Positions 4,833-35,400 of a stretch of 35,681 nt of DNA are shown here, in pieces (positions within the stretch are counted from its first letter, which is position 1; the number at the start of each line of letters is the position of its first letter). Below the pieces are notes generated by a model, which saw only the letters and a list, made by a program, of their open reading frames with translations, did not search any database and was not told the DNA's origin. This DNA comes from Planctomycetota bacterium. Its GTDB lineage: Bacteria; Planctomycetota; Brocadiia; CAIUPP01. Both the position numbers and the translations under genes were made by a program. The DNA lies in NCBI GenBank assembly GCA_022705425.1, contig JAKJEM010000032.1:1-35681 (forward strand), written 5' to 3'.

Positions 4833-4879
4833 AGGGACGCGTGGATGGGGCGGCGGCAACGGAGGAAGGAGGTCTGGCG

Positions 4880-6331
4880 GTGAAGACCGACCTGTGGGGA
4901 ACGCGCGCGGTCCTCTGCGACGCGGAGATCGAGCGCATTCACGCGGCGTCGTTGCGCGTGCTCCGGGAGACGGGGGTGCGCGTGCCGGTGCGGCGGCTTC
5001 AGGACGCGGCGGCGGCGCTGGGGGCGCACGTGGACAGCGGGAAAGGGATCATCCGCTTCACGGAATCGGCGGCCAAACGGCGAGCTTGGGCCGCGCGCCC
5101 GAAACCTCCGCCGCGCGAGCCGGGACGCAGGGTGCGCGGGATACTCTCCGGTTCGGCCGTCCGCACACTGGACATGGACACGGGACTGGCGCGCGACGCC
5201 ACCTGTGCGGACCTGGCGGACTCTGTGCGGCTGGCGGACGCGCTGGACTGCGTGGAGGTGGGCAGCAGCCTGGTCTTGCCCCGCGACGTTCCCGCCGGGA
5301 CGGAGGACCTTTGTCAGTTCTTCATCTCGGCCAAGGTCGGACGCAAGCCGGTCGTTCCCACCGTGCTCAACCTCAACTCCGCCGAACCGATCCACGACAT
5401 GCTGGCGGTCCTGCTCGGCAGCCGCGCGGCGCTGAAGGCGTCGGGCCGCTTCTTCGCGCGCTGCTACTGCACCTCGCCCCTGACATACAGCCGGGACGGA
5501 ATCGAACTGGCCCTCAAGATACTGGACATGGGATATCCGGCGGTCTTTGGCGCGCCGATGGTTGTCTCGGGCGCCTCGGGGCCGGTGACGGCGGCCGGAA
5601 CGCTGGCGCTGTCGAACGCGGAGGCGCTGGCGGGCATGTGCCTGACGCACGCGTTGGGACAGGAACCCCACTATGGGGCCGTTCCGGTAGTGATGGATCA
5701 GCGTAGCGGCCAGGCCTGCTACGCGGACCCGCGCAAGATCGTCCTCTGTATGGCCAGCCGCGACCTGACGCGCTGGTACGGCTTTCCTGAGCCGGGGTTC
5801 CACGTTGGGCTCGACGCCTGGCACCCGGGCATCCAGGCGGCTGTCGAGCGCACCTTCACCAGTCTGATGGGCCTGTTTCTCTATGACGTCCCCCTGAGCG
5901 TCCGCCTGGGAATTCTGGGGCCGGCCGGGGCCGTCTGCTCCCTGCCGCAGGCGCTGATAGACGTTGAACTCGTCGGCTTGCTCAACGCTTTGATGGCCGG
6001 GGTGGATGTGAATGACGAGACGCTGGCGGAGGACTTGATTCGCTGTACGGGGCCGGGGGGCTCCTACCTGGCGCTGGACCATACGGCCGAGCATTTCCGG
6101 CAGGAGATGTGGTTGCCGAAGTACTTCGAGCGGCGCCTCCCGGACTCGATTCAGCGAGCAGACATGGAGGGGATCATGCGCCGGGCCTCCGAGGATGTCC
6201 GCAGGATTCTGTCCGCGGAGGAGGCGTCGCCGCTGGACCGGGAGCAGGAGCGGGAGTTGGACCGAATCTTCATCTGTGCGGGCGGGCCGGAGCGCCTCTG
6301 TCGCGTGCGCGGCGGGGGACAGAATCACTGA
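4880..6331 (+). CDS. MttB-superfamily (non-pyrrolysine) corrinoid methyltransferase
   Basis: 483 residues, the usual length for the trimethylamine methyltransferase family (MttB/MtgB). Family blocks are the N-terminal helix region IHAASLRVLRETGVRV, PTVLNLNSAEP, the GAPMVVSGASGPVTAAG segment, LSNAEALAG and the C-terminal GGSYLALDHTAEHF. Members move a methyl group from a quaternary or tertiary amine to a cobalamin protein. There is no in-frame amber codon, so this is the pyrrolysine-free type whose known members use glycine betaine, carnitine or similar compounds. GTG 4880 is chosen because AAGGAGG lies seven bases upstream. No corrinoid protein or RamA-like activator is in the window. A DUF4838 gene follows after 30 bp. 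Confidence 0.9.
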   Translation: MKTDLWGTRAVLCDAEIERIHAASLRVLRETGVRVPVRRLQDAAAALGAHVDSGKGIIRFTESAAKRRAWAARPKPPPREPGRRVRGILSGSAVRTLDMDTGLARDATCADLADSVRLADALDCVEVGSSLVLPRDVPAGTEDLCQFFISAKVGRKPVVPTVLNLNSAEPIHDMLAVLLGSRAALKASGRFFARCYCTSPLTYSRDGIELALKILDMGYPAVFGAPMVVSGASGPVTAAGTLALSNAEALAGMCLTHALGQEPHYGAVPVVMDQRSGQACYADPRKIVLCMASRDLTRWYGFPEPGFHVGLDAWHPGIQAAVERTFTSLMGLFLYDVPLSVRLGILGPAGAVCSLPQALIDVELVGLLNALMAGVDVNDETLAEDLIRCTGPGGSYLALDHTAEHFRQEMWLPKYFERRLPDSIQRADMEGIMRRASEDVRRILSAEEASPLDREQERELDRIFICAGGPERLCRVRGGGQNH

Positions 6332-11279: not shown

Positions 11280-11861
11280 TTACCAGTAGATGTAACGCTG
11301 GAACTCCGCGCGCTCGTCTTCGTCAAGAGCCTCGACGTCGGGGATCAGGTAGCGGTTGTTGTCCAGGTCCATCAAGACCTTGCCGCGCTGGCCGTAGTCC
11401 ACGGCGCGATCGGAGGACCAGCGCATGAAAAAGCTGGCAGGTCCCTTGTCCGTTTCCACGTCCATGGCGATAAGCCCGTACTTCCACCCGATGTTGACGA
11501 TGCGCTTCACAATGTGAACGAAGTAGCGGCGTCGGAGCGCCTTGCGTACCAGGTCGGCGGCGTCGGCCGGAAACTCATCAAGGTTGCGGATGAGGCCGAT
11601 CTCGAAGTCCTTCTCTCCGGCGGTGTAAAGGAGGGAGATGTACCCGTTGGGATGGGCGACGGGGAAGGCATACGCGGCGTAAACGCCGCCGTAGATGCCT
11701 TCGTTGAGGACGGTCACGTGCAGGGCGCCCAGGTTCCCCAGATGGATGCGGCACATGTTCGGGGTGAGGAAGCGGACCTGCGTCTCCGTCTTCGGGGGAG
11801 GGGGGTTCTTCAGAAGCGCCTCGGACGCGGGGGCGTCCGGCGCGGCGGGGGCGTCGGTCAT
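11280..11861 (-). CDS. DUF1854 protein, partner of the adjacent ABC transporter
   Basis: 193 residues. About 30 Pro/Ala-rich residues precede a DUF1854 domain (about 35-190). It is recognised by AYAFPVAHPNGYISLL, the RRRYFVHIVKRIVNIGWKYG block, DVETDKGPASFFMRW and the C-terminal DNNRYLIPDVEALDEDER. DUF1854 occurs as a separate protein beside, or fused to, ABC exporters, and some copies lie near cyanophycin genes; none of those is visible here. The start is 10 bp past the transporter stop, and the Shine-Dalgarno TAAGGG overlaps that stop codon, so translation is probably coupled. No signal peptide; cytoplasmic. Molecular role unknown. Confidence 0.85.
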   Translation of the reverse strand: MTDAPAAPDAPASEALLKNPPPPKTETQVRFLTPNMCRIHLGNLGALHVTVLNEGIYGGVYAAYAFPVAHPNGYISLLYTAGEKDFEIGLIRNLDEFPADAADLVRKALRRRYFVHIVKRIVNIGWKYGLIAMDVETDKGPASFFMRWSSDRAVDYGQRGKVLMDLDNNRYLIPDVEALDEDERAEFQRYIYW

Positions 11862-11871
11862 GGCAAGACCC

Positions 11872-14481
11872 TTACTTCTTGACGAGGTGAATGGTGTCCA
11901 CGTTGGCTTCGCGCGAGAGTTCGGTCTGGATTTTGACGAGACGGTAGTAGAGGCCGCCCAAGGCCAGGAGTTCCTCGTGGGACCCCTGCTCGATGATGCG
12001 GCCTTCTTCCATCACGATGATGCGGTCGGAGTTCTTGAGGGTGCTGAGACGATGGGCAATGGCGATGGTGGTGCGCCCGGCCGTTACGCGGAGCAGGGCC
12101 TCCTGGATGAGTTGCTCGCTTTCGGTGTCCACGTTGCTCGTCGCCTCGTCGAGAATGAGGATCTTCGGATCGTAAAGGAGCGCACGGGCGATGGAGATGC
12201 GCTGTCGCTCCCCGCCGGAGAGTCCCGCGCCGCGCTCGCCGATGTAGGTGTCGTAGCCCAGGGGATGTTTGATGATGAAGTCGTGCGCGTTGGCGGCCTT
12301 GGCTGCGGCCAGCACCTGGTCGGGGGTGGCGTCCTGCCGCCCGTAGGTGATGTTGTCGTAGATCGTGCCGCGGAACAGGAAGGGCTCCTGCAGCACGATC
12401 CCCACGCAGCGGTGTAGGTCGTCTACGTCCAGGTCGCGAATGTCCACCCCGTCAATCAGGACGCGCCCCTCGTCCACGTCGTAGAAGCGCCCGATGAGGT
12501 TGGTGATGGTGGTCTTTCCCGACCCGCTCTTTCCGACAATTCCGACACGCTCGCCGGGCTTGATGGCGAAGGAGACGCCCTTCAGAACCGGCTCGTGCCG
12601 GTTGTAGCCGAAGGTGACCTTCTCCAGGGCCACGGCGCCCTTGGGGTTCGGGAGGCGGATGGGATTCTCCTTCTGGACGATCTGGGGATTGGTGTCGAGG
12701 ATCTCAAAGGTGCGCTGTGCGGCGGTGAGGAACTGGGTGAACCAGTCCGTCAGCGTGGTCATGTGCGCCAACGGGGCGTAGAACATGCCGAGGTAGGCGA
12801 AGAAGGCCATCAGGTCGCCCAGTGACAGGCTGATGCCGTGGCTGGTGAGGACCTCCGCCCCGCCGAAGAGCCACACGATAAGACCGCCCAGCCCGAAGAT
12901 GAGTCCCATGGCGGGGTTGAACAGACTGGTGGCGTATTCCACGCGACGACCGCTGTCGCGCAGGTAGCGCGTGGACTTGGCAAAGCGGCGGTCCTCACGA
13001 TCCACCTGGCCGAAGGCTTTGACGACGCGGATGCCGGAGAGGATCGAACTGACGGAGCCCAACATGCGGCTCCAGGCATCCCAGACGCGGAAGTAGCGGG
13101 GATAGACGCGCCGCCAGTAGAAAATGCTCGCGGCGATGACGAGGGGCGCGGGCAGCAACGTCCAGAGCGCCAGTTTCCAGGAGATGCTGAAGAGCATGAT
13201 GCCGGTAATGATCACCATGAGAATCTGCGCCAGGAATCCCTGGGTGGCTTGGCGCACAAACTCGCGCATGGCGCCGGTGTCCTGGCCGATGCGGCTGATG
13301 AGATTGCCGACGCTGTGACGATCATAGTAGTCCACGCTCAGGTGTGTGAAGCGCGAGAAGATGGCGTTGCGCAGATCGTAGGTGATCTGGGTGCCGACGT
13401 AGCTGTTCAGACGACCGTTGATGCTGTTGCCGACGGCGGTGAGCAACTGCACGGCGAAGAGGGCCAGGACCAGGTACATGAGGAGGCGAAGAGGCTTGGC
13501 CAGTTCGTCCTTGGCGGCGGCGCGGACGATGTACTTCTGCGACGCGCTGAAATGGGGGGCTATCTCGTCGGTGGTGATGTCGCCGGCAATAAGGGCGTGG
13601 CGCTTCTGGAGGGCCATCTCCACGTTGAGGTGTGGGAGGTCACGCTTCCGCGCCCAGAGCCGCACGTTCTCGGCCACCAGCGGGGGGCAGCCGGGCAGGA
13701 TGACGACGGCGTCGGCGGGCTGATCCCCCAGTTCCGACAGGGGCACGGCGTAGAGAGTGGCCGCGTTTCGCGTAATCAGGTACACTTGCTGGTCAGGCTG
13801 TGCGGCGGCAAGATCAAAGGAGTCCGACTTCGAGTAGGGGATGATCACGTCGTCCACGAGAATCTTGGTCAGGCGGGGGGGAATCATGTGCAGCGCGGTC
13901 ACCACGAAGAGCACCACCAGCATCAAGGCGGCGTAGCCGGCATAGGGGCGCATCATCTTGAGGACGCGTTGAAGGACGGCCCCGCGATCCACGCAGCGGT
14001 GGCAAATCTCCCCCTTGAACTCAAGGGTCATATTGCACTTGGCACACTTACGCGGGTCCTGGTCGTCCTCGGGCCCCGTGGTTACGGGGTGGTTCTCAAT
14101 CCAGAGCTTGAGCTTGGCAACCACCTTGTGGAAGTTGTCCGCCTTGGCGTTGGAGTAGGCGAGGACCTCGACGAACACGCCCTCGACCAAGGCATCTACG
14201 AACCCGCCGCCGACGCCCTGGCGTGCCCGGACCTCGCGGATGCTTTCCTTCTTGAGAAGCAACCGAACGGCCTTGGGGTTCTCCGCCGTCGGCATGGCTG
14301 CCTTGACGAGGCGGTCGCGCTCCACGAGGAGAAATATCTCCTCGTATGTGCCTTCAAGATTGAGGTCCGTAGCCGTGGACAGCCACGCATCACCGGGGTT
14401 GACGCCTTCCTTCTGAAGGAGGGTGGCAAGCGCCTTGGGAACGGGGCGGTTCAGGAGGCGGGAATGGGAGTGCGATGACAT
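11872..14481 (-). CDS. ABC exporter half-transporter with N-terminal PH-like and zinc-ribbon region
   Basis: 869 residues against about 580-620 for an MsbA-type half-transporter. The nucleotide-binding domain is intact: Walker A GIVGKSGSGKTT (647-658), signature LSGGE (754-758), Walker B ILILDE (774-779), H-loop His810. Before the first membrane helix (about 181-200) lie 180 extra residues. These hold a PH-like stretch (about 45-135) and a zinc-ribbon pattern with Cys146, 149, 160 and 163. A second addition of about 115 residues (213-330) is inserted between membrane helices 1 and 2. Start ATG 14481 is preferred over ATG 14499 because GGAGGAG lies nine bases upstream of it. It pairs with the DUF1854 gene. 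Substrate unknown; the protein presumably works as a homodimer in the inner membrane. Confidence 0.94.
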   Translation of the reverse strand: MSSHSHSRLLNRPVPKALATLLQKEGVNPGDAWLSTATDLNLEGTYEEIFLLVERDRLVKAAMPTAENPKAVRLLLKKESIREVRARQGVGGGFVDALVEGVFVEVLAYSNAKADNFHKVVAKLKLWIENHPVTTGPEDDQDPRKCAKCNMTLEFKGEICHRCVDRGAVLQRVLKMMRPYAGYAALMLVVLFVVTALHMIPPRLTKILVDDVIIPYSKSDSFDLAAAQPDQQVYLITRNAATLYAVPLSELGDQPADAVVILPGCPPLVAENVRLWARKRDLPHLNVEMALQKRHALIAGDITTDEIAPHFSASQKYIVRAAAKDELAKPLRLLMYLVLALFAVQLLTAVGNSINGRLNSYVGTQITYDLRNAIFSRFTHLSVDYYDRHSVGNLISRIGQDTGAMREFVRQATQGFLAQILMVIITGIMLFSISWKLALWTLLPAPLVIAASIFYWRRVYPRYFRVWDAWSRMLGSVSSILSGIRVVKAFGQVDREDRRFAKSTRYLRDSGRRVEYATSLFNPAMGLIFGLGGLIVWLFGGAEVLTSHGISLSLGDLMAFFAYLGMFYAPLAHMTTLTDWFTQFLTAAQRTFEILDTNPQIVQKENPIRLPNPKGAVALEKVTFGYNRHEPVLKGVSFAIKPGERVGIVGKSGSGKTTITNLIGRFYDVDEGRVLIDGVDIRDLDVDDLHRCVGIVLQEPFLFRGTIYDNITYGRQDATPDQVLAAAKAANAHDFIIKHPLGYDTYIGERGAGLSGGERQRISIARALLYDPKILILDEATSNVDTESEQLIQEALLRVTAGRTTIAIAHRLSTLKNSDRIIVMEEGRIIEQGSHEELLALGGLYYRLVKIQTELSREANVDTIHLVKK

Positions 14482-14688
14482 GACAGAGTGCTCCTCCATC
14501 GGCGCGTCAAGGGGAAGAAGCGGTGCACATGCCCCTGAGGCAGACGACGTCTGCGTTGCTGACGAACAGGGCGCAATCTATGAGACACCCAACACCGGTT
14601 GGGATGGCGTTCAAGCCTGTGCCGCTCATCAAACCATCGCGAGGGGGGCATAACTGCCGATTCGGGGGCCATCCTCACGACGCCGGGG

Positions 14689-15152: not shown

Positions 15153-15440
15153 CTATCCCAGCATCCCCTGAAGGCCGGAGATCATGAAGACCTTTTTGAC
15201 AGGGGGCTTTGAGTTGACGATGGTGAAGCCTTCGGCGCCGGCGGCGCGGTGGGCGGCGACGCAGAGGCGGATGAAGGCGGACGCGACGTAGTCAACCTCT
15301 TGAAGGTCGAAGACGATGGAGCCCTTGTATCCGTCAAGGGCTTGACGAAGCTGCGGCTCGACGCGCCCGCTGTTGGACGTGTCCATGAATCCCTTGAAGG
15401 TGCAGAGGAGCTTGTTGCCGTCCTGTTTGATCTCGATCAT
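15153..15440 (-). CDS. STAS-domain protein (anti-sigma-factor-antagonist-like)
   Basis: 95 residues, the length of SpoIIAA/RsbV. The STAS pattern is visible in LLCTFKGFMDTSNSGRVEPQ, SIVFDLQEVDYVASAFIRL and the C-terminal VKKVFMISGLQGML. In classic members the phosphorylated serine sits in DSSGL or DSTGL; here the stretch is ASAFI, so a serine (Ser54) remains but the Asp and Gly beside it are lost. It may therefore be phosphorylated differently or not at all. ATG 15440 has AAGGGA seven bases upstream, and about 80 bp separate it from the aldehyde dehydrogenase gene read before it. A kinase or phosphatase partner is not adjacent; a PP2C phosphatase lies 17 kb away. Confidence 0.85.
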   Translation of the reverse strand: MIEIKQDGNKLLCTFKGFMDTSNSGRVEPQLRQALDGYKGSIVFDLQEVDYVASAFIRLCVAAHRAAGAEGFTIVNSKPPVKKVFMISGLQGMLG

Positions 15441-15520
15441 GGCATTCCCTTCCATTGGAGTCCTTGTGCCGCGGGGCCGGGGCGGCCCGAGAGCCGTCGG
15501 CGCAGCGGGTCGCGCAAATC

Positions 15521-16945
15521 CTAGAGATAGTTGCGGTCGTATTCCTCCTCGATGGAAGGAAGCGCGCGGGTCTCGTCGAGCCAGGCGGCGACGTTGAATC
15601 GCGTGAAGCACTGGTTCTCGCGCCGATAGGCAATGCGCTGGATATTCAGCAGGTGCGCGGCGGTGACGTTGTCGGTGGTGATGTTCTTTCCACCGGTGCC
15701 GCAACCGAGCGTAAGGGAGGGGCTGAGGGTGTTGAACATGCCGCCGACGCCGCCGTGGGACGAGGGCTGGTTGACCAGGATTCGACCGGCGTTCATCATC
15801 AGCGCGAACCGCGAGATCTTGTCGCGGTCATTGCTGAAGATGCTGACGGTGTGGCCGATGCCGTTGAAGTAGTTCAGGTCCAGGCAGCGGTTGACGGCGG
15901 AGGAGAAGTCCTCGGTGACGTAGAAGGCGATGACGGGGGCGAGTATCTCGCCGGAGAGGGGATAGCGGGGTCCGACGCCCTCCAGGGGGGCGAGGAGAAG
16001 GCGCACGTCTTCGGTAACGGGCAGCCCGGCCAGGCGCGCAAGCTTGGCGGCCGGCTGACCGACAGAGGCCGGGTTCATGCGCGCGCGCTTTTCGTCCAGG
16101 ACGACGGCTTCAAGCTTGGGGATTTCCTCCGGGCTCAGGAAGTAGCCGCCGTTGCGGCGGAACTCCTCCATAAGCGCCGGGGCGGTCCTCCGCTCGACGA
16201 CCACCGCCTGCTCGCTGGCGCAGATGGTGCCGTAGTCGAAGGTCTTGGACAGGAGAATCTGCCGCACGGCGAAGGGGATATCGGCGGTGGCCTCGACGTA
16301 AACGGGAGTATTCCCGGCGCCGACGCCGATGGCGGGCGTGCCGGAGCTGTAGGCGGCCTTGACGAGGGAGGGGCCGCCGGTGGCCAAAATAAGGGCCAGA
16401 GACTTGTGGGACATCAGCTCCTGGGTCTGCTCATGGGAACAGGAATCGAGACACTGGATGCAGTCCTCGGGAGCGTCCTCGGCCAGGGCGGCTTCGTAGC
16501 AGACGCGCGCGGCCTCGGCGCAGCACTTGCGGGCCTTGCCGGAGGGGCTGATGACGAGCGGGTTGCGCGTCTTGAGGGCGATGAGGACCTTGAAGAAGAC
16601 GGTGGAGGTGGGGTTCGTCACGGGAATGATGGCCAGGATGGGGCCCATGGGCTGGGCGATCTCGACGATGCCGCGCTGGGGGTCCTCGCGAATGATGCCC
16701 ACGGTCTTGACGGACTTGATGTCGTTGTACACGAGTTGAGTGGCGACGACGTTCTTGAGGACTTTGTCCTGCCACCGCCCGATGCCCGTCTCCTCGGCGG
16801 CCATCTTGGCCAGGGCAACGCGGCGGGCGAAGGCGGCCTTGCAGACGGCGCGGACAATGCGGTCCACGCGCTCCTGACTGTACTGGCTGAAGACCCCGGC
16901 GGCGGCCACGGCGTTCTGCATGATGCGGTCAATCTCGACACTCAT
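15521..16945 (-). CDS. CoA-acylating aldehyde dehydrogenase (AdhE N-domain/EutE type)
   Basis: 474 residues, complete as a stand-alone acylating dehydrogenase. The catalytic Cys242 is in FDYGTICASEQ, the nucleotide region is GVGAGNTPVYVE, and the C-terminal GGKNITTDNVTAAHLLNIQR is characteristic of AdhE-type domains. The family oxidises acetaldehyde or another short aldehyde to acyl-CoA with NAD, or runs in reverse. The iron alcohol dehydrogenase half of AdhE is absent, and no extra N-terminal microcompartment-targeting helix is seen. ATG 16945 has AAGGAG seven bases upstream, and a near-consensus promoter lies 47 bases before the start. Substrate chain length is not determined by sequence alone. 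Confidence 0.92.
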   Translation of the reverse strand: MSVEIDRIMQNAVAAAGVFSQYSQERVDRIVRAVCKAAFARRVALAKMAAEETGIGRWQDKVLKNVVATQLVYNDIKSVKTVGIIREDPQRGIVEIAQPMGPILAIIPVTNPTSTVFFKVLIALKTRNPLVISPSGKARKCCAEAARVCYEAALAEDAPEDCIQCLDSCSHEQTQELMSHKSLALILATGGPSLVKAAYSSGTPAIGVGAGNTPVYVEATADIPFAVRQILLSKTFDYGTICASEQAVVVERRTAPALMEEFRRNGGYFLSPEEIPKLEAVVLDEKRARMNPASVGQPAAKLARLAGLPVTEDVRLLLAPLEGVGPRYPLSGEILAPVIAFYVTEDFSSAVNRCLDLNYFNGIGHTVSIFSNDRDKISRFALMMNAGRILVNQPSSHGGVGGMFNTLSPSLTLGCGTGGKNITTDNVTAAHLLNIQRIAYRRENQCFTRFNVAAWLDETRALPSIEEEYDRNYL

Positions 16946-28658: not shown

Positions 28659-28889
28659 TCAGGCTGGAATGACGCCCTTGACCTCGGGCAGAGCCTGCTT
28701 GAGGATGCGTTCGACGCCCATCTGCAGGGTCATGCGCGCACCGGGGCAGCCGCTGCACGCGCCCTTGAGCCGGACCTTGACCATGCCGTCGGCCGCGACA
28801 TCCACCAGTTCAATCGCGCCGCCGTCCATCGCCAGGCGGGGGGCGATCTGTTCCTCCAGCACCTTCTGTACCTGTTCGCGCGTCAGCAT
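28659..28889 (-). CDS. Nfu-domain iron-sulfur carrier (NifU C-terminal type)
   Basis: 76 residues covering only the Nfu domain: VQKVLEEQIAPRLAMDGGAI, LVDVAADGMVKVRLKGAC and the cluster-binding CSGCPG. Such proteins bind a bridging 4Fe-4S cluster as dimers and pass it to apo-enzymes. ATG 28889 has AGGAG six bases upstream. An earlier in-frame ATG at 28937 is rejected because it falls on the -10 element of the promoter at 28936-28965. Confidence 0.92.
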   Translation of the reverse strand: MLTREQVQKVLEEQIAPRLAMDGGAIELVDVAADGMVKVRLKGACSGCPGARMTLQMGVERILKQALPEVKGVIPA

Positions 28890-28935
28890 GTTCCGCTCCT
28901 GTTCGCTGAATTGACGGAAGACCGTAACAAACCTC

Positions 28936-28965
28936 ATCTTATCAGGAAGGGCGTGAGAGGGTCAA
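28936..28965 (-). promoter_or_regulatory. Promoter of the nfu-mdh-aarF-pgpA operon
   Basis: Read on the minus strand: TTGACC, 18 bases, then TAAGAT with TGA directly before it (extended -10). The start point would be near 28929, 40 bases before the nfu ATG. It decides the short start of nfu. Confidence 0.55.
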
Positions 28966-28968
28966 AAC

Positions 28969-30069
28969 TCAAGGTCGCCATTCGGCAAGCTGCACGAGGC
29001 GTTGCAGAAGCCAGCGACGGCTGTCGCGATAGACTCCGTTCGATCCCTCTTCGAGGGCGCTCAGAATCCAGCGTCGGAGGCAACGCATCTCCCATCCCAG
29101 CCAAAGGGCCTTGGCCTCGGCGAGGAGCTCGCCGACATCGCGCGGCGCGTTGGGGGCGGGGCCGAGGGAATCGAGATAGGCGCGCGCGAGTTCGCGTCGG
29201 CGATCGGCAAGAAGAGGGGTGGCGTCTTCCGGGGCGCCGAGGAATGGAGCAAGGTCGAAGAGGCGCGGTCCCCTCTGCGTGTAGAGCATGTCTATTACGA
29301 GCCACTCGCCGGTGTCCGCTCGGACGCCGACATGGCGGGGAAAGAGGTCGCCGTGGATGAGACCGACGGGCATGGCGCGCAGGCGCCGGACCAGGGCGCG
29401 CAACTGTGCGGCAAGATGGGCGGCGGAATGCGGCCCGCGGGTGAGCAGCCGGCGCACGTCCGTCCCCAGCCCTCCCCGCCGCCCGTGGGCAACCAAGGTC
29501 CGCAGGGCGGGTACCGCATCTTCGAGTATGCCGGGCAGGTCCGCCAGGGGAAGTTGCGCCAGATAGCGTGTGGGTGGCTGAAGGGCATTGAAGCGGGCGA
29601 TGAGGCGGACGAAGGCTTCATAGCGGCTATCTTCGGGCGGCAGAGACTCGTCGGTGAAGCCCATGTGGAGGTGTTCGAGGAAGAGAACTTCGTGGCCGTC
29701 GGCGTTGCTCATCCATCCATAAAGAACGGGGACGGGCGCCCCGGCGGGCGTGAGGGCGAGGTAGTGCCAGGCCTCGTGGTAGCGCGGGTCGTTCAGCTGC
29801 TTGACGAAGAGGCGGTATCGGGGAGGGATTGTGGCCGCGCTCTCAAGAGGGGCGACCTCAAAACAGTCGCTCTGGTCGCCGGCGCGGTCGGGGTTGAGGG
29901 ACGCAGGGTGATAGCGGTCGGGTGTCTGCCCCTGCATCTGCTCCGCCCGACGGAGAATGCGGTCCACGTGGCGGCGTTGCAGGCGGGTTCGGGTGTGAAG
30001 CCAGTCGAGTAGTCCCTCGCGGGAGAGGGCGGGGATGGCGGTATTGGGGACGGCCGTTCGGGCGCTCAT
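28969..30069 (-). CDS. Aminoglycoside-phosphotransferase-fold protein, substrate unknown
   Basis: 366 residues. APH-fold signs are YRLFVKQLND with a likely ATP-binding Lys90, LIHGDLFPRH (239-246) as catalytic loop and VIDMLY (Asp260) as the metal-binding segment, followed by RGPRLFDLAPFL. In canonical members the loop is HGDxxxxN; here the metal-ligand Asn is His246. The rest is largely helical with many Arg and Leu. ATG 30069 has AAGG eight bases upstream; a GTG at 30099 would overlap the preceding stop and has no Shine-Dalgarno. It follows the MBL/kinase-like gene within the same operon, so a role in the same signalling or metabolic pathway is likely. Drug resistance is not suggested. Confidence 0.8.
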   Translation of the reverse strand: MSARTAVPNTAIPALSREGLLDWLHTRTRLQRRHVDRILRRAEQMQGQTPDRYHPASLNPDRAGDQSDCFEVAPLESAATIPPRYRLFVKQLNDPRYHEAWHYLALTPAGAPVPVLYGWMSNADGHEVLFLEHLHMGFTDESLPPEDSRYEAFVRLIARFNALQPPTRYLAQLPLADLPGILEDAVPALRTLVAHGRRGGLGTDVRRLLTRGPHSAAHLAAQLRALVRRLRAMPVGLIHGDLFPRHVGVRADTGEWLVIDMLYTQRGPRLFDLAPFLGAPEDATPLLADRRRELARAYLDSLGPAPNAPRDVGELLAEAKALWLGWEMRCLRRWILSALEEGSNGVYRDSRRWLLQRLVQLAEWRP

Positions 30070-30095
30070 GAGGTCAGCCTTGTGCGAAGGGCATG

Positions 30096-31811
30096 TCACG
30101 CCCGTGTCGGAGACTCGGCGGCGGGCAGGTCAAAGCGTATGGCGTCCTTCTCGCGGCGGCAACTGCCGCCCTGGGGCCGCAGCACGGCATCGAAAAAGCG
30201 CACGTGGCGGATTTCGAGATCGGCGGCGGCGGACGGCGGCTCGGAACGGACAGACAGGATGACCCGCCCGGAGTGCGCCGTCGCGTCGAAACGAAGTCCG
30301 GCGACACCTTGGGCGGCCAGAATCTCGATCAGTGTCGTCATCTGTTCGACGATCCGGTCGGCTTCAACGTACACGGCGGGCAGATCGGCGGGGATGAGAT
30401 TCTCGAAGGCGACGTCCGCCGCCGCCGGCTGTTGCAGGATGCGCCGTCCCAGGGCGCGGGCAAAGGCTCGCTCGTCTTCAAGGCTGCCGTCGAGATCCCC
30501 TTCGGCGCGACCGCCGCTGCGGGCGAGGTTCTGCGCTTCCGTGAGGATATCATGGACGGAGGCGGGCCGAAGGGCGTCGGGGCGGCGCATACCGTACAGC
30601 GTGTGGACGAAGTCCGCTATCATGCGGCGGGTCCGCCGAAGCAGAAGGGGGGAGACGTAGGTGGCCAGGGCCGGCTCGCTGAGGACGCCATCGAGGCGGA
30701 GAATGACGGCCATTCCCTTGTGCGGCAGAGACAGGGGCAAAGAGCGTCCGTCGAGGACGGCGGCCAGGTGCTCGGAGAAGGAATCGAGCGCAGCGTCCAC
30801 GGCACGGGGATCGAGCGCGCGGAGGGCTTCGGCGGCGGCAGCCCGTTCATCGAGCGCTTCCAGGTGGAAAGCGGCCGTTTCCAGTCGCCCGGCAATGACG
30901 GCCAGCGCGTCGCCGGCTTCTGCGACAAGCCAGCGCGTGTAGTCGGCCAGCAGGCGCACCCGCTCCGCGTCCACGCTCTCCAAGTTGGATAGTGACTCGA
31001 CAGTAGCCAGGGTGCGTTCGAGCATGGCGGCGGCGGCGGCGGCGGACAGGGAATAGCCGTGCCCCGGCGCTAGAACGGCCAGATCGCCGCCGCGCAGGAG
31101 GGGAACGACGCCGCCCAGGGAGGCGATCAGCGCCGGCTGATCCCAACCCGGCGCTCCGGCCACCAGGGGTCGCGCTGCAACGGTGAGGTCGCCGCAGAAG
31201 ATCACGGCGCCCGCGCGAAGGGCCACGCTGTCGGGGCTGTGGCCGGGAACGTGATACATCAGGAAGAAATCGGTCCCGACCTGAAGGCGTTCGGCTCGAA
31301 GGGCGGCATTGCCGGGAATGGGAGTCACTGTCAGTGAATGCCCATGTCCCAAGGCGAAGGGGCGCAAGACCGCGGAGGCCGCGCCGGTGGGAAAGAGCGG
31401 GACATGGACTTCGCACCGGGGGGCGTCTTCGTCGTAGATCTCGGCCATCGTCAGCGCGCGGTCCCCTTGGGCCAGCGCGCGAGCGGCGGTCTCATGGGCC
31501 AGAACCCAGGGTGGCGTGCTGGATTCGAGTGATCGGACCTCCCGGACGTGGTCGCGATGACAATGGGTCAGGAGAACCAGCACCGGACGGGGTCGTTGTC
31601 GCAACGCGTCGTTGACGACCTGGCCAACACGCGTAATCTGGCGGCGGTCCGCGCCGGGGTCCAAGACAAGAAGGACGTCGCGCCCGCGCAAGACGTAGGT
31701 GTTGCAGGAGAGGAGGTTAGGGCGGGTTTCAAAGGGAAAGACCTCCAGGTCGGGGGCGCCCGGAACGGGCTGCCAGCGCTCGGAGAGAAGGACGGCAGCT
31801 TCAGGACTCAT
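30096..31811 (-). CDS. Metallo-beta-lactamase-fold protein fused to a degenerate histidine-kinase-like module
   Basis: 571 residues. Residues about 20-255 form an MBL domain with THCHRDH (His83, His85, Asp87, His88), HVPGHSPDS (His191), FCGDL (Asp208) and LAPGHGYS (His251), so two metals can be bound. After a helical middle, residues about 390-432 look like a histidine-kinase helical hairpin ending in LRPASVHDILTEAQNLARS. Residues about 475-563 follow the kinase ATPase layout (VYVEADRIVEQMTTLIEIL, then VLRPQGG and IRFDLPAA) but lack the N-box Asn and the DxGxG box. This suggests a pseudokinase or adaptor. The ATG overlaps the STAS gene by 11 bases, so the two are coupled. MBL assignment is firm; the kinase-like part is inference. 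Confidence 0.85.
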   Translation of the reverse strand: MSPEAAVLLSERWQPVPGAPDLEVFPFETRPNLLSCNTYVLRGRDVLLVLDPGADRRQITRVGQVVNDALRQRPRPVLVLLTHCHRDHVREVRSLESSTPPWVLAHETAARALAQGDRALTMAEIYDEDAPRCEVHVPLFPTGAASAVLRPFALGHGHSLTVTPIPGNAALRAERLQVGTDFFLMYHVPGHSPDSVALRAGAVIFCGDLTVAARPLVAGAPGWDQPALIASLGGVVPLLRGGDLAVLAPGHGYSLSAAAAAAMLERTLATVESLSNLESVDAERVRLLADYTRWLVAEAGDALAVIAGRLETAAFHLEALDERAAAAEALRALDPRAVDAALDSFSEHLAAVLDGRSLPLSLPHKGMAVILRLDGVLSEPALATYVSPLLLRRTRRMIADFVHTLYGMRRPDALRPASVHDILTEAQNLARSGGRAEGDLDGSLEDERAFARALGRRILQQPAAADVAFENLIPADLPAVYVEADRIVEQMTTLIEILAAQGVAGLRFDATAHSGRVILSVRSEPPSAAADLEIRHVRFFDAVLRPQGGSCRREKDAIRFDLPAAESPTRA

Positions 31812-32118
31812 GGCGGTTGATTTCCATGAAGGTGTCGAAACCGCAGCGCCGGAGAATGGAGTACACCTCGGGCCGAACGTCGCTCAGTCGCAGGGAGAAA
31901 CCCTTCCGCGCGGCAGCCTTGGCGGTTACGGCAATGGCGCGCAAGCCCATGCTGGACACGTACTCGACGCCGGAAAAATCGAGCCGAGTAGCGTGGTCGG
32001 CCTTTCCGACAAGAGAAAGCACGGCGTCCTGAAACTCCTGTGCGGTCTGCGCGTCGAGGCGCCCGGTGACACGGGCAAGGGGTGCGGGAGAGACCGAGAC
32101 CACCTCTACGCTGATCAT
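31801..32118 (-). CDS. STAS-domain protein (anti-anti-sigma/RsbV-like)
   Basis: 105 residues. The STAS core is ARVTGRLDAQTAQEFQDAVL, RLDFSGVEYVSSMGLRAIAV and SLRLSDVRPEVYSILRRCGF. The phosphorylation loop is SSMGL against the usual DSSGL: the acidic residue is replaced, but Ser56 and the Gly remain, so reversible phosphorylation is plausible. ATG 32118 has AAGGAG seven bases upstream. It is the first gene of the STAS-MBL-APH operon and is divergent from a PP2C phosphatase gene, the enzyme class that dephosphorylates such proteins. Confidence 0.92.
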   Translation of the reverse strand: MISVEVVSVSPAPLARVTGRLDAQTAQEFQDAVLSLVGKADHATRLDFSGVEYVSSMGLRAIAVTAKAAARKGFSLRLSDVRPEVYSILRRCGFDTFMEINRHES

Positions 32119-32174
32119 CAAGGGCTCCTTTGTCCGTCTTCCGTGCGCCCGGGACCGGCGCTCAGTTGAAGGGT

Positions 32175-32203
32175 ATAATACACTACAGGGAGGGGCGTCG
32201 CCA
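32175..32203 (-). promoter_or_regulatory. Weak candidate promoter for the STAS-MBL-APH operon
   Basis: A lone AT-rich patch GTATAATAC (32173-32181) gives TATTAT on the minus strand and TATAAT on the plus strand. On the minus strand a poor TGGCGA lies 17 bases upstream. It may need an activator or another sigma factor. Confidence 0.25.
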
Positions 32204-32287
32204 GTGGAAGACATTGTTCGTCCTGCCGTTGACGTCGGTTCAAGTGCCGCAGGGTGGGTTGAGGCGGTCGCGCGTCCGGATATCGCC

Positions 32288-32316
32288 TTGACAGCACAGA
32301 CAAGGCGTGATATACG
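32288..32316 (+). promoter_or_regulatory. Promoter of the PP2C phosphatase gene
   Basis: A perfect TTGACA, 17 bases, then TATACG with TGA directly before it (extended -10). The start point would be near 32323, 50 bases before ATG 32374. Confidence 0.65.
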
Positions 32317-32318
32317 CC
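32304..32318 (+). repeat. Inverted repeat over the phosphatase -10 element
   Basis: GGCGT and ACGCC flank GATAT, centred on the -10 of the promoter above. The position suits an operator, but the arms are only five bases and may be chance. Confidence 0.3.
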
Positions 32319-32373
32319 GTTGGGCGTAGGGCGGCACGCCGCGCCGGGGAAGAGGCCGAAGGGAGAATCGTCC

Positions 32374-34272
32374 ATGACGTTGCGGAATCGGCTGCTGGTC
32401 TCGTTCGTTGCGCTCATGGTGGCGGCGCTCGGTGTCAACTACGTGGTCATGCTGAACGTTGCGCGCCGGCACAGCCGGGAGGAACTCAAGGCTCGCGCCA
32501 TGAGCCTCGCGGAGGTGCTCTCGGTCGTGGGGCATTACGCGACGAAGGTGGAGGTGGTGGCCGACGACATCATCGGGCGGCAGATGCTGGCGCAGGCGAC
32601 GCTGTCGGCGCACCTGGTGGACATTGCGGAGAACCGGGCCAAGATGCCCACGGCGGAGTTGATCGCTCGGCTGAAGAGCATTGCCCGGGATTCCGTCATT
32701 GACGAGTTCTGGATTACCGACGAAAAGGGGCACGCCTACCTGCGCACGGAGGATGCGATAGATTTCACCTTTCCGGCCGAGGGGGAGGCATCCGGAACGC
32801 AGGCAGCAGCCTTTTCCCCGCTGCTGCGCGACCGGACGCTGAAGGTGACGCAACTGCCCCAGGAGCGGTCGTACGACAAGAAGATCTTCAAGTACGTCGG
32901 TGTTTCTGGGGTGGACAAGCCTCGGATCGTTGAGATCGGCGCCGAGGCCGAAACCCTGGCGAAGCTTACGGGTTCCATTGACCCGACGGCGCTGGTGAAG
33001 ACGCTGGTGGGCAAGGGCGGGATCATGGGGGCTGAAATCCTGCGACAGGACGGTGTGGCTGAACTGGCCGTTGTGGGGGGCGGGGTGTCGAAGACAACGC
33101 TCTATCGGGCGCGCTCGTTGCTGGAGAAGCAGGTCGCGCAGAACGTGGAGCATCTGACGGCGGACGCCTACATGGAGGGGAACTGCATGGCGGTTCTCTC
33201 CCCCGTCCTGTTGTACGAAAAGCGCTTTGCGCTGCTGATCTACTTCGATATGAGTCGGGCGAACGCCACGATCAGGAATGCGACGGTCATCATGACCGGT
33301 ATTGCCGCCATCGTTTGCCTGGCGGCGCTGCTGATGGCGGTGCGGATCAGCAGAGGGATTGCCGCGCCGATCCAGCAACTGGCGGCGGAGACGGTGGCCA
33401 TCGGTCAGGGGCAGTTGGAGCGCCGGGTGGCCGTGCGCGGCACGCGCGAGGTGGAACAACTGGGCGCGGCCTTCAACCAGATGATGGAGGCGCTGCGGCA
33501 GCACATCGAGGACTTGCAGCGCACCACGGCGGAGAAGGAGCGGCTGGAAAGCGAAGTCAAGATTGCCGCTGAAGTGCAGCAGTCCATGTTGCCGCGCGTC
33601 CTGCCGCGCGCGAAGGGGGTGAGCATTGCGGCCAGCATGCAGCCCGCCAAGGTGGTCGGGGGGGACTTCTACGACGCGGCGGCCCTTGCGGGTGGAAGGC
33701 TGGGGGTGTCGGTGGGGGATGTGTCGGGCAAGGGACTTCCCGCGGCCCTCTTTGCGTCGCAGTCGCTGAGTCTGATGCGGATCGTGGCGAAGGAGAACGT
33801 GAGCCTGGACCGGATCATGGATCTGGGGAACAAGCTGGTGCTGCTCTCAAACGAAACGCACGGGTTCTTCATCACCATGTGCGCGGCCGTGGTGGACCCC
33901 GAGTCGGGAACGATCCGCATCGCCAACGCAGGGCACCCGCCGCCGGTTCTGCTGCGTCCGGGACAGGCGCCCTCCTTCCTGTGCGATGCCACCGGGCCGG
34001 TGCTGGGGCTGATGGACGAGGCGGTTTACGAAACCCGGCAGTTTGAACTGCACCCGGGAGACGCCGTGGTCTTCTACACCGACGGCGTCACGGAGGCGGC
34101 CACGGAGGACAAGCAGCTCTTCGGGGAGGAGCGCCTGCTCGCATGTCTGGAGGGATGCGAGCGGATGAACGCCGAGGAGATCGTGGCGCGCGTTCACCGC
34201 GCGGCGCAGGACTTCGCGCATACGGAGGAACCGAGCGACGATCTGACGCTGCTCGTGGTCAAGATGGGGTGA
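32374..34272 (+). CDS. Membrane sensor PP2C (SpoIIE/RsbU-type) serine phosphatase with HAMP domain
   Basis: 632 residues. Transmembrane helix 1 is at about 6-29, an extracytoplasmic sensor of about 270 residues (Cache-like in layout) follows, then helix 2 at about 303-325, HAMP (to about 378, with AAPIQQLAAE and AAFNQMMEAL), a coiled-coil linker ending AAEVQQSMLP, and the phosphatase domain. Metal-binding residues are intact: GGDFYD (Asp431), VGDVSGKG (Asp449), FYTDGVTEA (Asp570) and PSDDLT (Asp622/623), with NAGHPPPVLL between. Such enzymes dephosphorylate STAS antagonists in partner switching, and one is encoded directly across the divergent promoter. ATG 32374 has GGGAG nine bases upstream. 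The signal sensed is unknown. Confidence 0.94.
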   Translation: MTLRNRLLVSFVALMVAALGVNYVVMLNVARRHSREELKARAMSLAEVLSVVGHYATKVEVVADDIIGRQMLAQATLSAHLVDIAENRAKMPTAELIARLKSIARDSVIDEFWITDEKGHAYLRTEDAIDFTFPAEGEASGTQAAAFSPLLRDRTLKVTQLPQERSYDKKIFKYVGVSGVDKPRIVEIGAEAETLAKLTGSIDPTALVKTLVGKGGIMGAEILRQDGVAELAVVGGGVSKTTLYRARSLLEKQVAQNVEHLTADAYMEGNCMAVLSPVLLYEKRFALLIYFDMSRANATIRNATVIMTGIAAIVCLAALLMAVRISRGIAAPIQQLAAETVAIGQGQLERRVAVRGTREVEQLGAAFNQMMEALRQHIEDLQRTTAEKERLESEVKIAAEVQQSMLPRVLPRAKGVSIAASMQPAKVVGGDFYDAAALAGGRLGVSVGDVSGKGLPAALFASQSLSLMRIVAKENVSLDRIMDLGNKLVLLSNETHGFFITMCAAVVDPESGTIRIANAGHPPPVLLRPGQAPSFLCDATGPVLGLMDEAVYETRQFELHPGDAVVFYTDGVTEAATEDKQLFGEERLLACLEGCERMNAEEIVARVHRAAQDFAHTEEPSDDLTLLVVKMG

Positions 34273-34284
34273 GGGCGTCGGACG

Positions 34285-35400
34285 TTACGGCAGGAACTTC
34301 TCCGGGTGCTTCAGCTTGGCCGGGAGGTACTTGGTGACGACGTACTCAAGCCCGTGCTTGGCAAAGGCCTGCTGCTCGACGCGCTTGCCCATCTTGAGCA
34401 TGACGGCGATGGCCTCCTGCCACTTTTTGTGATGAATCACGAAGGGATCGTTGCGCAGGGCGTCCTGGGCGCGCTTGATGTCCACCGCCTCAAGGGGATG
34501 GGTGCAGTCCTTCAGGTCAAAGGTATCCACGTCGTACGGCGTCACGCCCAGGTAGCGGGCCTGCGGCACGCAGAAGAACTCGTTGAGGTGCGCGGCGTTC
34601 CCGGAGCCGACCTTGAGCGTGCGGTAGATGTTGAAGTAGCCGTAGGGGTCGCCGTCGGTGAAGACGTACACGGGGATGTCGTGCGTGTCGGCCAGGAGGC
34701 GCACGAAACGGCGGCAGGCGCGGCTGGGGACGCCGCCCATGGCCACCAGGACGCAGTTGGCGGTCTGGAAGTAACTTTCCTCGACGAGCCGCTCGAACGT
34801 GCCGTTGGTCTCGATGCAGAGAATGAAACGCGCCTTGGTGCGGAACTCCAGGTGCTCGACGACGCTGGGGACGGTGTAGCTGCCCGAGCCGAAGCGCGAG
34901 CAGTCAATTTCGAGACGCTTGCCGGTCTTGCGGTCCTTGTCTATCACCACGAGTTCGCCGGCCACGCTGCCGCCGTGTTCGTCGGCGCGGAAGTGGATCT
35001 GCTCGCGGTTGACGCGGAGCATGGCTTCGACGTCGTCCATGATGGCGTCGGATTCCGGCTGCTCGCTGAAGCGCGCGTCGCCCCAGTTCTTGCTGATGTA
35101 GTAGGCCTCCCGCTTGGAGGAATGCTTGCGCGTTTCGATGTGCATCTTGGCGAGAGCCATCATGCGCAGTGTCTGCGCGAAGGTCTTGACAGTGTTGACC
35201 GTCAGTGTGCGCTCCATCATGGCGCCCTTGAGGCGGAAATAGCCGTCCCTGGCCTTGTAGCTGACGTTTCCCAGAGAGCGAACGGGGACGTTCATGTTCG
35301 GTTTGCGCCCGTCGAGGACCTTGCCGCGGACATCGGCGGCAACGCCACGAATCTGCTTGACGACGGCGGCGCCCTGCTCGGGCGTGGCGGCTTTGCTCAT
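34285..35400 (-). CDS. top6A: DNA topoisomerase VI subunit A (Spo11-like)
   Basis: 371 residues, typical for Top6A. The winged-helix part holds the catalytic tyrosine in KREAYYISKNW (Tyr101 by alignment with Spo11-type motifs). The Toprim part shows CIETNGTFERL with Glu197 and TDGDPYGYFNIY with Asp249 and Asp251, the Mg2+ ligands. The enzyme cuts both DNA strands for passage of a second duplex, but needs ATPase subunit B. In most genomes top6B adjoins top6A; here the next gene upstream encodes a small membrane protein, so B must lie further on or elsewhere. ATG 35400 has GGAG seven bases upstream. Topoisomerase VI is mainly archaeal and plant, and patchy in bacteria. Confidence 0.93.
   Translation of the reverse strand: MSKAATPEQGAAVVKQIRGVAADVRGKVLDGRKPNMNVPVRSLGNVSYKARDGYFRLKGAMMERTLTVNTVKTFAQTLRMMALAKMHIETRKHSSKREAYYISKNWGDARFSEQPESDAIMDDVEAMLRVNREQIHFRADEHGGSVAGELVVIDKDRKTGKRLEIDCSRFGSGSYTVPSVVEHLEFRTKARFILCIETNGTFERLVEESYFQTANCVLVAMGGVPSRACRRFVRLLADTHDIPVYVFTDGDPYGYFNIYRTLKVGSGNAAHLNEFFCVPQARYLGVTPYDVDTFDLKDCTHPLEAVDIKRAQDALRNDPFVIHHKKWQEAIAVMLKMGKRVEQQAFAKHGLEYVVTKYLPAKLKHPEKFLP

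Follow-up and report, generated by a model that had tools for sequence, protein, structure and literature searches.

In the genome of an uncultured planctomycete, the genes for a STAS protein, an MBL-fold metallo-hydrolase and an APH-fold protein form one tight minus-strand operon, which lies divergently to the gene of a membrane-bound sensor phosphatase. We tentatively favour the view, to which we give somewhat less than an even chance, that this trio is an imported cassette in which the STAS protein acts as a phospho-controlled subunit of the MBL hydrolase, that the cognate kinase is supplied in trans, and that the divergent phosphatase is a plausible, albeit unproven, partner. The window, i.e. 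the whole stretch of DNA that was analysed, comprises 35,681 nucleotides.

Architecture of the locus

The STAS gene (31801-32118, minus strand) encodes a protein of 105 aa from an ATG at 32118, which is located behind an AAGGAG sequence. It overlaps the gene for the MBL-fold metallo-hydrolase fusion (30096-31811, minus strand; 571 aa) by exactly 11 bp (ATGAGTCCTGA), and the stop codon of the latter shares 4 bp (GTGA) with the GTG start of the gene for the APH-fold protein (28969-30099, minus strand). This aminoglycoside/choline kinase-like protein has 376 aa when read from GTG 30099, or 366 aa from ATG 30069. The two overlaps, 11 bp and 4 bp long, imply that translation of the three genes is coupled. 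On the other side of a divergent intergenic region of 255 bp (32119-32373), in which no match to a sigma-70-type promoter was found, begins the plus-strand gene of the membrane HAMP/SpoIIE-PP2C sensor phosphatase (32374-34272; 632 aa from ATG 32374); an alternative open reading frame from a TTG is longer, with 650 aa. ORF and domain checks proved correct the gene positions, the 11-base and close APH spacing and the 255-bp divergence given in the sequence-only reading of this DNA.

The operon is followed, 31 bp past the APH gene, by NifU (28659-28937) and then by Mdh, UbiB and PgpA, the last of which was named from its own sequence without a family search. At the opposite end, the gene for the topoisomerase VI A subunit (TopoVIA; 34285-35400, minus strand) is convergent with the phosphatase gene. 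No sigma factor is encoded among the operon genes, and a comparison of the four genes with the known defence systems in PADLOC gave no match. The same window also contains an MTTB gene (trimethylamine methyltransferase family) at 4841-6331 on the plus strand.

The STAS protein matches PF01740 with 62.9 bits and TIGR00377, the NCBIfam family of anti-sigma-factor antagonists, with 58.1 bits, exceeding the cut-off of 53.45. Its loop YVSSMGL aligns with YMDSAGL of TM1442 (1sbo), and this alignment places Ser56 (codon 31951-31953), the candidate phosphoserine, at the phospho-acceptor position. The TIGR00377 score and the alignable serine bear out the earlier assignment as a switch protein, here an anti-anti-sigma-type STAS; STAS-only proteins have been reviewed (PMC8256260). 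A second STAS-like protein of 100 aa is encoded elsewhere in the window (15153-15455, minus strand), just downstream of a same-strand aldehyde-dehydrogenase-family gene (15521-16945) and adjoining an ABC exporter (11872-14499) with a DUF1854 protein (11280-11861).

For the APH-fold protein, the match to PF01636 (36.1 bits) is above the cut-off. The motifs HGDLFPRH and VIDML are present, the Asn of the Brenner motif HGDxxxxN being replaced by His, and a sequence search retrieved no relative from the PDB.

The MBL protein probably ends in a dead kinase-like domain

The MBL protein is composed of a hydrolase domain (approximately aa 1-255), a helical middle part and a C-terminal domain (approximately aa 466-571). 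Its Lactamase_B match (39.3 bits) is over the cut-off, the metal-ligand motifs THCHRDH (82), PGHS (189), CGD (206) and APGHG (248) are kept, and the domain is similar to glyoxalase II-like structures. For the C-terminal domain no Pfam family was found, even at E=10. A blind search of the phylum with aa 256-571 gave a single, weak foreign match (E=1e-3) to a histidine kinase in another planctomycete. We compared the region with a histidine-kinase profile of 15 sequences, namely this foreign match and 14 sequences from the same genome. The profile aligns with aa 466-547 of the MBL protein, a likeness that spans about 80 residues. When aa 440-571 were used, the HHalign score of 28.7 was reached by none of 400 shuffles and by none of 250 decoys, which were pieces of long open frames from related loci. 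With aa 379-571 the score was 31.8 and one of 60 shuffles reached it, so that the assignment of the C-domain is probable rather than proven.

To the same effect, the C-domain scores 31.1 against the histidine-kinase profile and 11.8, i.e. at background (shuffles 12.6±2.5), against a profile of six RsbW-type domains from the same genome. This comparison ruled out the tail as an RsbW. An added alignment revealed that the N-box Asn and the DxGxG and G2/ATP-lid (GxGxGL) motifs are absent from the C-domain. Since these ATP-binding motifs are missing, phosphorylation of the STAS protein by the MBL protein is not to be expected. The DHp segment (aa 379-470) reaches a score of 18.0, the maximum among shuffles being 22.9. 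An AlphaFold prediction without homologues gave an unusable model (pLDDT 39); a Foldseek search with it returned many DesK histidine-kinase chains at query TM values of about 0.2-0.3, none with E<0.001, and was excluded from the evidence. Judging from the profile comparison and the missing motifs, the MBL protein probably has a dead GHKL domain, of the histidine-kinase type, at its C-terminus, which agrees with the earlier description of an MBL hydrolase fused to a dead kinase-like fold.

The sensor phosphatase and its relatives

The phosphatase consists, in this order, of a transmembrane (TM) segment, an extracytoplasmic domain of about 280 aa that no Pfam family recognises, a second TM segment, a HAMP domain (48.8 bits), a coil and a SpoIIE/PP2C domain (PF07228, 177.6 bits). 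Full-length orthologues with 42% and 37% identity occur in other planctomycete families, together with a partial one. Residues D431, D449, D570 and D622/D623 are invariant between the phosphatase and two orthologues, and the PP2C metal-ligand motifs are intact. As judged from these acidic residues, the SpoIIE-type phosphatase looks active, as had been proposed. SpoIIE-type phosphatases are known to act on STAS proteins (PMC11418112; PMC8256260), and the docking between the two partners has been described (PMC11418112). Within the surrounding kilobases examined, no STAS, MBL or APH gene was found near the phosphatase orthologues. An assignment of the phosphatase as SiaA (NCBIfam NF038263) was rejected at 59.4 bits, the cut-off being 700.

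The HAMP–SpoIIE phosphatases of three pairs of loci (L172/L178, L173/L179 and L174/L180) represent a planctomycete family of their own, in which the extracytoplasmic domain is conserved; this is the domain that lacks a Pfam match in the window protein. In at least seven loci of Phycisphaerae/Planctomycetota (L098, L120, L129, L133, L138, L144 and L147), a SpoIIE-type phosphatase is found about 1 kb downstream of TopoVIA, and the gene between the two in those seven usually encodes a YggS/PROSC-looking protein. A locus of Thermoanaerobaculia (L113) shows the convergent arrangement of the window, with a SpoIIE gene facing TopoVIA. The TopoVIA of the window has 84% identity to the copy of a same-family genome; its weak JetD-like matches in PADLOC look like common Toprim/Spo11 ancestry.

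Origin of the trio and candidate kinases

Among 293 further genomes in the phylum sample, no orthologue of the MBL or of the APH protein was found. A search of the 392-genome sample with the MBL tail matched only one other sequence, a histidine kinase. A scan of genome contigs revealed no wider homologues of the MBL protein, and a plasmid search with the same protein yielded nothing beyond a 30% match to the MBL domain; no donor of the trio was found. In a same-family genome (G001), where NifU was recognised via an antisense frame, NifU–Mdh–UbiB–PgpA and TopoVIA are located apart from each other, and the trio accompanies neither of them. According to the sequence-only reading, a neighbourhood not conserved in close relatives would speak against it. 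The neighbourhood is indeed not conserved: the 293 genomes yielded no MBL or APH orthologue, and the trio is found neither in G001 at these places nor in the examined surroundings of the phosphatase orthologues. The adjacency of STAS and MBL is known from a single copy, and neither coevolution nor conservation supports their coupling.

The GC3 values of the STAS (0.755), MBL (0.773) and APH (0.767) genes lie below that of 59 other genes (0.882±0.032; z about -3.4 to -3.9). As the genes used for comparison derive from simple ORF calling, this serves as supporting evidence only. The adjacent phosphatase gene has a GC3 of 0.85. By its common atypical GC3, the trio looks like one block with a history unlike that of its neighbours. 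This composition suggests that the three genes were acquired jointly or evolved unusually; relaxed selection, instead of transfer, could also account for the low GC3.

Genome-wide, we detected ten SpoIIE, eleven STAS and 14 HATPase_c_2 matches, five of the latter above 60 bits and none in the locus or on its contig. A kinase–STAS (RsbW/RsbV) pair is present on contig C44 of the same genome. An RsbW-like gene, for which the sequence-only reading had proposed a search, is thus encoded elsewhere in the genome, in the form of RsbW-type kinases and of an RsbW/RsbV pair, but none of these stands out as the partner of this phosphatase or of this STAS protein. The kinase for the STAS protein can come from elsewhere in the genome. 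Two SpoIIE–RsbW-type HATPase fusions in one reading frame are also encoded (C222:99445-100788, L061; C110:26418-27467, L063), and the one on C222 is followed by a STAS gene.

Weighing the explanations

The sequence-only reading had placed the MBL hybrid in the kinase slot of RsbW. That the C-domain takes the place of RsbW, acting as kinase of the STAS protein or as anti-sigma factor, would fit its position beside the STAS gene and its GHKL ancestry, yet the domain is of the histidine-kinase type, scores at background with the RsbW profile and lacks the ATP-binding motifs, and we regard this replacement as exceedingly improbable. The tail could instead be a histidine phosphotransferase resembling Spo0B, ChpT or PhyT, with a retained DHp histidine linking a two-component relay to the hydrolase. 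Degenerate histidine kinases are known in such a role (PMC5898713) and the C-domain is of the corresponding type. However, the DHp part does not rise above shuffles, and His364, the sole candidate, is placed on the margin of a helix that is itself weakly predicted, without an H-box motif; we regard a phosphotransferase as very unlikely. Less unlikely is that the STAS gene is a passenger or coupling gene, with MBL and APH being metabolic or detoxifying small-molecule enzymes on which no phospho-switch acts. Members of both families are mostly small-molecule enzymes, and the MBL domain is similar to hydrolases of the glyoxalase II-like kind. Against this stand the 11-bp overlap, the retained phospho-acceptor and the signalling origin of the C-domain, and we give it a minor though real chance.

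A true local partner switch would require that the divergent phosphatase dephosphorylates the STAS protein, that the units have been co-selected and that the MBL hybrid is the STAS target. The arrangement across 255 bp, the active-looking PP2C domain, the appropriate serine of the STAS protein and the documented action of SpoIIE-type phosphatases on STAS proteins are all consistent with it. On the other hand, full-length orthologues of the phosphatase occur without STAS, MBL and APH in their surrounding kilobases, the composition of its gene is more native than that of the cassette, and, since the genome has ten matches to SpoIIE and eleven to STAS, the adjacency may be due to chance. We consider such a switch, like the passenger reading, possible but on the unlikely side. 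In another reading, the sensor phosphatase might set the phosphorylation state of the STAS protein, which would gate the MBL hydrolase through the dead domain as a docking module and so connect an extracellular signal to small-molecule turnover without a sigma factor; this we judge doubtful.

According to the imported-cassette explanation that we favour, STAS–MBL–APH would be a cassette restricted to this lineage, probably acquired en bloc, that was inserted between the conserved NifU–Mdh–UbiB–PgpA block and the resident sensor phosphatase. An RsbW-type kinase from elsewhere in the genome would phosphorylate Ser56, and a SpoIIE phosphatase would remove the phosphate; among the ten candidates for the latter, the divergent one is best placed. 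The unphosphorylated STAS protein may then dock on the dead kinase-like tail and thereby change the activity or location of the MBL hydrolase. For the APH-fold protein, we infer that it would most likely phosphorylate a small molecule related to the substrate of the hydrolase. Likewise, we infer all protein–protein interactions of this scheme, the supply of a kinase from elsewhere and the resulting output.

Comparison with known systems

In a search of open-licence papers, neither a STAS–MBL–APH operon nor an MBL–dead-kinase fusion was found to be described, in line with the earlier statement that no described system with this gene set is known. The locus may be regarded as an odd and unproven variation on a familiar signalling switch; as an oddity of which one copy is known, from a single uncultured planctomycete, it is of value mainly as a lead. 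Like RsbU–RsbV–RsbW and SpoIIE–SpoIIAA–SpoIIAB, it combines a SpoIIE-type PP2C phosphatase with a STAS protein that has a phospho-acceptor serine. In contrast to these systems, it contains neither an RsbW-type kinase nor a sigma factor; the STAS gene instead overlaps that of an MBL hydrolase with a dead histidine-kinase-type tail, and an APH-fold gene is added.

The hydrolase part shares the HxHxDH, PGHS, GD and PGHG ligand motifs with glyoxalase II-like MBL hydrolases (2zwr, 7ev5, 2xf4), to which it adds a helical middle and the C-terminal dead kinase-like domain. The latter has in common with Spo0B, ChpT and PhyT, which are examples of dead histidine kinases as signalling parts (PMC5898713), a GHKL domain without ATP-binding motifs. 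Here, however, the tail is fused behind an MBL hydrolase and has no supported DHp histidine. If our proposal is true, it would provide an example of a dead histidine-kinase domain that has taken on a new role as a regulator responding to STAS.

SiaABCD of Pseudomonas aeruginosa (PMC7647112) is a known case of partner switching in which the output is an enzyme rather than a sigma factor; the locus shares with it a two-TM HAMP–PP2C phosphatase and, if our proposal holds, this kind of output. The present operon differs in having neither a SiaB kinase nor a diguanylate cyclase, and the output enzyme would be the MBL hydrolase. If the STAS protein controls this enzyme, partner switching would extend to the direct control of a metallo-hydrolase, just as SiaC controls a diguanylate cyclase.
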